Below, in pieces: positions 33,342 through 34,407 of a stretch of DNA of 42,919 nucleotides. The stretch comes from a virus. Within the stretch, counting starts at the first letter, position 1; every line of letters starts with the position of its first letter. Both the position numbers and the translations under genes were made by a program. The notes under the pieces are model-generated. The model saw only the letters and a program-made list of their open reading frames with translations, had not been told where the DNA came from and ran no database searches. The stretch spans positions 1 to 42,919 of IMG/VR virus record IMGVR_UViG_3300017748_000020. One strand, written 5' to 3'.

Positions 33342-33357
33342 AAGTTAAGATTAACTT
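33342..33357. repeat. Dispersed palindrome, copy 9 (N2 = GA)
   Basis: AAGTTAA-GA-TTAACTT between the MoxR-like and VWA genes. It abuts the MoxR stop (CTA, read TAG) and precedes the AGGAG of the VWA gene. Confidence 0.9.
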
Positions 33358-34407
33358 CTAGGCAACGAGATATTTCCCATTGCCCTTAGCTGATGCCCAT
33401 GCTCTAACATCCTTAGACTGCTTTAGAGAATTGTCTCTAGCTAAAGCATCCTTTAAGACATAGGCTTGGAACTCTTCATTAGGTAACCTTTGTAAGTACT
33501 TGAGAATGTTACCAATATTTTTGTCGTTAGCTTTCATTGAAAGAGAACTGCAAAGAGCATACATAATCGCAGGCTCTTCCACTAACTGAGCATTGTCAGG
33601 ATCAGCTACCAACTTATCTACATCAGGACACTTACTGTAAATGTCCAAGAATGTTTTTAAGTTTGCATATGCTGATCTGCCAATCTGACCGCTGATAGCC
33701 TCGCCCATTGCAACCGCATCCAAATTCCAAGATAACATTTGAGATGATCTCTCATGTGATCTAGGTGTAGGATATGCATTCTCTCCAACTTTGAATTGAT
33801 GCAAGAACTCAGGCTGAAATCTTAACCAACCTATATACCTATGATCAACACCGCTTTTTGAAAAGTAATTGCAAGTGTCATCTAGGTTTGCCTCAACCTC
33901 GATGAATGAAAGCCTATCAACTAAATGCGATGGCATCTGATTAGTGCCTGCCTTGTCGCTTAGTTTGTTTCCAGCACTCATGATATAGCACTCTGATCTG
34001 TCGATCTTGTACTCGCCAACTCTATACTCATCGCAAATCTGAGCATAAATATTCATGTTGAGAATTGGAGACTGTGGCAACTCATCGAAGAAATAAAGTA
34101 CACCTTTGTAACCATCCGCTTTGATCTCAGCCATGCGGTCAGCATCTACATACCAATCAGGTTGTAAGACTTTCATCTTGTTACCATCAGGCATTCTCAT
34201 ACCGCCTATGTCAGTAGGATCAAGTTGAGCAAGGGAAATATTTACTAGGTAAAAACCTAAGTCCTCTGCGATCTGCCTAGCTAAAGCAGTTTTTCCAATA
34301 CCCATCGAGCCTTCAAGATGGAAAGAGATTGGCTTGTGGTTTGACTTTTGTGCTAGGTTCTTTTTAATACCCTCAAGTATTATTGTTTTTGCTAATGATA
34401 ATCTCAT
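33358..34407 (-). CDS. MoxR-family AAA+ ATPase
   Basis: A 349-residue protein. Walker A is G33-S-M-G-I-G-K-T40, Walker B FFDEL (106-110), with an IVS-like LDPTDIGGMRMPDG block between, as in MoxR/NorQ/CbbQ ATPases. A sensor-1 region (YIMSAGNKLSDKAGTNQMPSHLVDRLSFIEV) follows. MoxR partners carry VWA domains, and the VWA gene is the next in the operon. The probable role is ATP-driven remodelling of a target protein through the VWA adaptor. AAGGAG precedes the ATG. Confidence 0.85.
   Translation of the reverse strand: MRLSLAKTIILEGIKKNLAQKSNHKPISFHLEGSMGIGKTALARQIAEDLGFYLVNISLAQLDPTDIGGMRMPDGNKMKVLQPDWYVDADRMAEIKADGYKGVLYFFDELPQSPILNMNIYAQICDEYRVGEYKIDRSECYIMSAGNKLSDKAGTNQMPSHLVDRLSFIEVEANLDDTCNYFSKSGVDHRYIGWLRFQPEFLHQFKVGENAYPTPRSHERSSQMLSWNLDAVAMGEAISGQIGRSAYANLKTFLDIYSKCPDVDKLVADPDNAQLVEEPAIMYALCSSLSMKANDKNIGNILKYLQRLPNEEFQAYVLKDALARDNSLKQSKDVRAWASAKGNGKYLVA

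Follow-up and report, generated by a model that had tools for sequence, protein, structure and literature searches.

The locus belongs to a marine phage whose IMG/VR contig, 42,919 bases long and referred to as the window, is 93% coding. Here a block of five genes on the minus strand includes a MoxR-type ATPase gene and a gene for a partner protein that joins a zincin-like metallopeptidase domain to a VWA domain, with a palindrome between the two. The block, from its first gene to its last, is as follows:

34765..35424, minus strand, first gene of the block, 219 aa, no family, with the start at 35424 preferred
34408..34677, minus strand, 89-aa protein with a weak WYL_2/SH3-barrel match (PF10902, 2e-5, just below the cut-off), conserved in relatives
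33358..34407, minus strand, MoxR-type AAA+ ATPase, 349 aa, orthologue of N4 gp24
33342..33357, no strand, palindrome AAGTTAAnnTTAACTT between the MoxR and VWA genes, abutting the MoxR stop codon
32158..33327, minus strand, zincin-like metallopeptidase domain (DUF2201_N) joined to a VWA domain (DUF2201) in one 389-aa protein, orthologue of N4 gp25
31257..32075, minus strand, third gene, 272 aa, no sequence family, found after the VWA gene in relatives spanning the region

The order of the five genes was kept in the relatives that span the region. For the first gene, the mechanical open reading frame reached 35487 (240 aa), and the start at 35424 was preferred on the grounds that close relatives share it and that a GGAG precedes it. 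The stop codon of the 89-aa gene abuts the MoxR start, and in relatives the same two genes abut or nearly do so. A MoxR ATPase and VWA/metallopeptidase pair had been predicted at this locus from the letters alone; both open reading frames proved exact, and every motif named in that prediction was present.

The ATPase carries a Walker A motif at residues 33-40 (G33-SMGIGK-T40), Walker B residues D108-E109, a sensor-1 position at N147, and arginines R165 and R216. From knowledge of the family, we take N147 to be sensor 1, R165 to be the presumed arginine finger and R216 to be sensor 2. The Pfam AAA match was weak (PF00004, 3e-4), and the protein was assigned to the MoxR family because of its match to PHROG 1297 ('ATPase', 1.3e-65) and its alignment. 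Both signatures of the phage gp24 family, Walker A GxxGxGK[ST] and Walker B hhhhDE, were found in the window ATPase, together with the linked gene for a VWA-domain protein that accompanies this family. In an alignment with 18 MoxR homologues, taken from phages of Proteobacteria, Firmicutes, Thermus and cyanobacteria, G38, K39, D108, E109, N147, R165 and R216 were invariant. The ATPase profile also reached midasin, McrB, CbbQ and NorQ.

The partner protein matched two Pfam families well above their cut-offs, PF13203 (DUF2201_N, 'putative metallopeptidase'; 1.3e-38, 133.6 bits against a cut-off of 23.2) and PF09967 (DUF2201, 'VWA-like'; 5.7e-23, 81.8 bits against 26.4), which together span residues 18-385 of 389, nearly the full length. 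The HEALH and MIDAS DTSGS expected of a DUF2201-type protein were located at residues 73-77 (H73-E74-x-x-H77) and 266-270, respectively. The zincin domain also has D99 and N103, and the MIDAS is complete (DxSxS...T...D: D266, S268, S270, T327, D351). Although most of the 19 VWA homologues aligned are just 20-33% identical to the window protein, H73, E74, H77, N95, D99, N103, D266, S268, S270, T327 and D351 were invariant. The original prediction was to be given up if Walker or MIDAS residues varied among relatives, and these residues held in all 18 and 19 homologues. D99 may be the third metal ligand; AlphaFold modelled the protein poorly (pLDDT 51), and this model was set aside for zinc-site geometry. 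At weak E-values, the profile of the N-terminus reached the archaeal protein MJ1213 and M48/HtpX peptidases, and that of the C-terminus reached integrin I domains and Ro60. The family is labelled an HNH endonuclease in PHROG 1314 and in many RefSeq phage records. We ruled this label out, since DUF2201_N and DUF2201 are the sole domain matches; the name is misleading and deserves correction.

We compared the phage proteins with cellular DUF2201 homologues drawn from a single bacterial class, the one to which a Mogibacterium MAG belongs. The family also occurs in Thermotoga maritima. As in the window, a MoxR gene directly adjoined the full-length bacterial zincin-VWA gene in most loci; the bacterial loci compared are short, and a missing neighbour there is uninformative. 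The bacterial pairs differ at the presumed active site, where half of them lack the HExxH Glu and each time have Glu in place of Asn at the N103 position. In the 18 cellular homologues the E74 position was occupied by Glu in seven, Gln in two and Met, Ser or Val in nine, and both His and the Asp of the presumed zinc site were kept in nearly all. Every homologue with Met, Ser or Val at this position had Glu at the N103 position, and every one with Glu or Gln had Asn. This paired switch, seen in loci L093-L112 and counted uncorrected for kinship, is consistent with the two positions belonging to one presumed active site. The catalytic Glu was retained in every phage homologue compared. Because phages always keep this residue and half of the cellular homologues have lost it, the pattern favours a working peptidase in the phage proteins.

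The gene following the VWA gene had been described as 272 residues of unknown type, and our searches agree with this description: the protein gave no Pfam, NCBIfam or PADLOC match and no sequence relative in annotated phages, and a search of relatives found the gene confined to the window's clade. It changes fastest in the block, with 33-85% identity where the VWA protein has 61-99%, around a conserved core ('PLWyHKVyKkGL...YkGRP.F'). In fold searches, its structural model (pLDDT 77.5) matched no PDB entry significantly; of the viral models, only A0A646QWM3 (321 aa, E 1.7e-6, probability 1.00) reached significance. This entry is probably gp16 of CRP-7, a 321-aa protein whose gene lies 15 bases downstream of the CRP-7 VWA gene; the same VWA-gp16 order was found in one metagenomic relative. 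CRP-7 gp16 aligned weakly with the core of the 272-aa protein (E 0.011; profile-profile E 0.0087), and its sequence score was the third among 322 open reading frames, with two unrelated ones above it. The link between the two proteins is significant solely at the level of the predicted fold, the sequence alignment being weak when taken alone. If A0A646QWM3 is CRP-7 gp16, a third component would be common to two distant phage groups. DUF3150, a label used in MinM2, was also considered as a third partner and rejected, since Pfam gave no confirmation and nothing was found to relate it to the window genes.

The palindrome between the MoxR and VWA genes, noted in the original prediction, is real; as a feature of the pair it did not hold up, being one of 11 copies in the window. 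At 3 or fewer mismatches, AAGTTAATCTTAACTT (33342-33357) gave 22 matches (11 sites, both strands) compared with a mean of 1.7 in shuffled sequences, and the core GTTAAnnTTAAC occurred at 11 sites compared with 0.1 in a Markov control. The ten further copies, none with a strand, are as follows:

36731..36746, copy with a mismatch in one arm, lying between the two terminase genes (small and large)
35871..35886, copy upstream of the five-gene block
30988..31003, copy directly next to the stop codon of gene 31004-31243 (79 aa)
28688..28703, copy between convergent genes
26168..26183, copy upstream of the primase-helicase gene, present in 9/9 records with that junction
22849..22864, copy at the end of the HTH gene 22858-23127
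21711..21726, copy directly next to the giant gene's stop codon
14100..14115, copy within the giant gene, 16/16 in four relatives
11694..11709, copy within gene 10674-12236, 16/16 in four relatives
2049..2064, copy abutting the stop codon of gene 1569-2048

Nine of the 11 copies are intergenic, and about six adjoin a stop codon. In the intergenic copies the central two bases vary and the arms are constant. Both intragenic copies were conserved at 16/16 in four relatives with only 46-63% identity at third codon positions, which is strong evidence that the palindrome is under selection at the DNA level. At the MoxR-VWA junction it was present in 8 of 17 records and absent in 9, and this absence ruled it out as a feature of the pair. 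An RNA hairpin seemed unlikely on inspection because the loop is too small and the A/T stem weak. On the simplest reading, the palindrome is a candidate site for a dimeric DNA-binding protein. A second perfect palindrome, TACTAGTTATAACTAGTA-like, was observed at approximately 26141-26158, 36946-36963 and 36991-37008, at two control regions, before the primase-helicase gene and before the large terminase gene. TACTAGTTATAACTAGTA also occurs in relatives, including those in which the first palindrome has diverged.

The MoxR/VWA pair itself is already known from N4 (gp24/gp25), from jumbo phages and from bacteria. In 50,697 phage records, we found the ATPase in 624 and the VWA protein in 799, and the two genes were linked in 14/14 distant phages inspected (N4, CRP-7, MinM2, G, PEV2, XC38, phiFa, Munch, PAC2, AR9, nom, RHph_Y2_6, V17 and LY01). 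In N4-like phages gp24 and gp25 are core genes with no function assigned (PMC4193335; PMC7650795), and they belong to the core of the Schitoviridae on widely differing hosts (PMC7650795). The N4 genes (PHROG 1297 and 1314) resemble the window pair in family, order and adjacency, with about 22-28% identity over most of the length. They differ in that a dCTP deaminase gene comes after N4 gp25, whereas the 272-aa gene comes after the window VWA gene, and in that N4 belongs to another phage group. We rejected membership of the window in the Schitoviridae, as it has neither an N4-type giant virion RNA polymerase nor an N4-type terminase or portal. The literature library searched contained no experiments on any phage member of the family, and an essentiality screen (PMC11879866) makes no mention of N4 or MoxR.

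For group 2.2 jumbo phages, Iyer et al. (2021) described MoxR with a metallopeptidase-VWA protein and suggested that the two act in virion assembly (PMC7824862). Jumbo phages with this pair (group 2.2, and the same architecture in AR9, Munch and G) have the same domain fusion and the same gene pair as the window, but their proteins are often larger and the genes sometimes lie several apart, and the proposed virion-assembly role found no support here. Acidianus two-tailed virus (ATV) likewise encodes a MoxR protein with a VWA partner; its p618 binds p892 and tail proteins (PMC4124505), and the system is stated to lack the peptidase domain (PMC7824862). ATV differs in being an archaeal virus whose pair acts in tail development, and it was likened to the window pair by description, not by sequence. 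The MoxR-VWA ternary conflict systems (VMAP, iSTAND and FtsH types; PMC7159879) share the combination of MoxR, VWA and a third protein. The window locus was not assigned to them, since it has no VMAP, inactive STAND or FtsH-type component and the 272-aa protein matches no family in the databases searched. The cellular systems NorQ/NorD, CbbQ/CbbO and RavA/ViaA, in which a MoxR hexamer works with a MIDAS-bearing VWA protein, provide a mechanistic template and differ in having cellular metabolic targets. No zincin domain is known in their VWA partners.

The window terminase was closest to those of pelagiphage HTVC027P, phage 023Pt_psg01 and DSL-LC04 (about 55-57%), followed by HTVC023P and MinM2 (50%), and the portal was likewise closest to HTVC027P and its kin. 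No capsid gene was recognised within the window. A related record of 47,594 bases, G010, extends 10.4 kb beyond the counterpart of the window's last gene, and this extension encodes a 301-aa protein where HTVC027P has its capsid gene. With this record running so much further, the window is a fragment of a larger genome, which probably exceeds 53 kb. The earlier argument that the pair is costly for so small a genome therefore falls, as the genome is not 43 kb.

HTVC027P, DSL-LC04 and 023Pt_psg01 have the terminase, portal and neighbouring head genes of the window type, and a profile search found neither MoxR nor VWA anywhere in their genomes; the same search found both genes in N4, CRP-7, MinM2, G, phiFa, AR9 and LY01. 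The head module can thus do without the pair, and this natural comparison between the window's clade and HTVC027P and its kin decouples the pair from virion genes. The result is evidence against a role in virion building, not proof against it. The window block is also transcribed opposite to the structural genes. As for timing, an early promoter is annotated directly upstream of the AR9 ATPase gene, the PEV2 genes around the pair are annotated 'transcribed in early infection' (RNA-Seq notes), and N4 gp24/25 are middle genes (PMC4193335). Early expression of the window pair would fit these homologues. A structural role keeps some plausibility from roseophages, in which the genes of some virion proteins lie close to the gp24/gp25 homologues (PMC4193335).

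Our comparisons establish the family membership of the pair, the integrity of its catalytic residues, the conservation of the operon and its independence from structural genes. New among these results are the conserved third gene and five-gene block, the independence of the pair from virion genes, and the dispersed palindrome. The best reading, to which we give an even chance of being right, is that the two-component MoxR/VWA system is an early ATP-driven remodelling or proteolysis machine. In NorQ/NorD, the pore of the MoxR hexamer takes up a finger of the VWA domain, the target is held at the MIDAS, and a linker in the partner is twisted by the ring (PMC9976466, PMC13036017); with this structure and its mutants as template, a phage mechanism can be proposed. 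The ATPase would form a hexameric ring, on which the VWA domain of the partner would dock while gripping a target through the MIDAS metal. ATP hydrolysis would then twist or pull the linker between the VWA and zincin domains and so remodel the target, which the zincin domain would probably cut. The 272-aa protein would probably serve as a dedicated partner or substrate adaptor. The machine would most likely act in early or mid-infection on a host complex or a replication or transcription complex rather than in virion building. A more elaborate form of this proposal, in which a phage-specific three-protein machine (MoxR ring, active zincin-VWA co-chaperone and dedicated third subunit) unfolds and cuts an early host or replication target under a genome-wide regulon of palindromic operators, one of them between motor and partner, is tentative and in our judgement rather unlikely as a whole.

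The pair could instead be a chaperone that acts on head or tail proteins, folding or processing them. Iyer et al. proposed such a role for the same architecture (PMC7824862), and it has been shown in part for the viral precedent, ATV p618/p892, where p618 binds p892 and tail proteins (PMC4124505); the roseophage virion genes near gp24/25 (PMC4193335) point the same way. Set against this are the phages with homologous terminase, portal and head genes that have no pair, the unrelated virion types that the pair accompanies (from N4 to AR9, G and phiFa), the early or middle timing of homologues, and the orientation of the window block opposite to the structural genes. We consider virion assembly possible at best, and somewhat improbable. 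An early position, a distribution that is broad but patchy and a peptidase site strictly conserved in phages would also suit a machine that dismantles or cuts a host defence or takeover target. Here none of the defence or counter-defence profiles searched fits, and core status in the Schitoviridae on very different hosts (PMC7650795) looks like housekeeping rather than a variable arms-race gene, so that counter-defence or the disarming of a host enzyme, the idea put forward in the original prediction and one possibility among several, appears unlikely.

Least probable, and in our view quite doubtful, is a maturase like NorQ/NorD or CobS/CobT, which would put metal into a phage or host enzyme, for example in nucleotide metabolism, with the HxxxH delivering metal and no cutting. 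NorQD does insert iron (PMC13036017), the cellular homologues retain the metal ligands even after losing the catalytic Glu, and several N4-like phages have genes for dCTP deaminase and thymidylate synthase near the pair. However, the catalytic Glu is invariant in phages, and no metalloenzyme gene was consistently linked across the phages inspected. Turning back to the remodelling or proteolysis machine, its interest extends beyond the window: N4 gp24 and gp25 have stood in the core genome of their group ever since it was defined, with no function assigned, and the pair recurs in hundreds of diverse phages. Given the decoupling from virion genes, the peptidase Glu kept strictly in phages but not in bacteria, and a candidate third subunit, what the pair acts on becomes testable in a laboratory phage such as N4.

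Several further features of the window were observed. The region 21700-37000 contains primase-helicase, exonuclease, SSB-like, RusA-like and PDDEXK genes, and family searches on the larger open reading frames of the window recognised no DNA polymerase. The giant gene 12237-21710 encodes 3157 aa with LPD38 near the C-terminus, and its kin are giant polyvalent proteins of Stx phages (the closest), Vibrio phages and a few pelagiphages. An N4-like virion RNA polymerase was ruled out for this gene by the presence of LPD38 and the resemblance to polyvalent proteins. Among the records compared, an HTH_3-type regulator (29838-30179) was confined to the window and a single very close relative, whereas the HTH gene 22858-23127 was widely shared.
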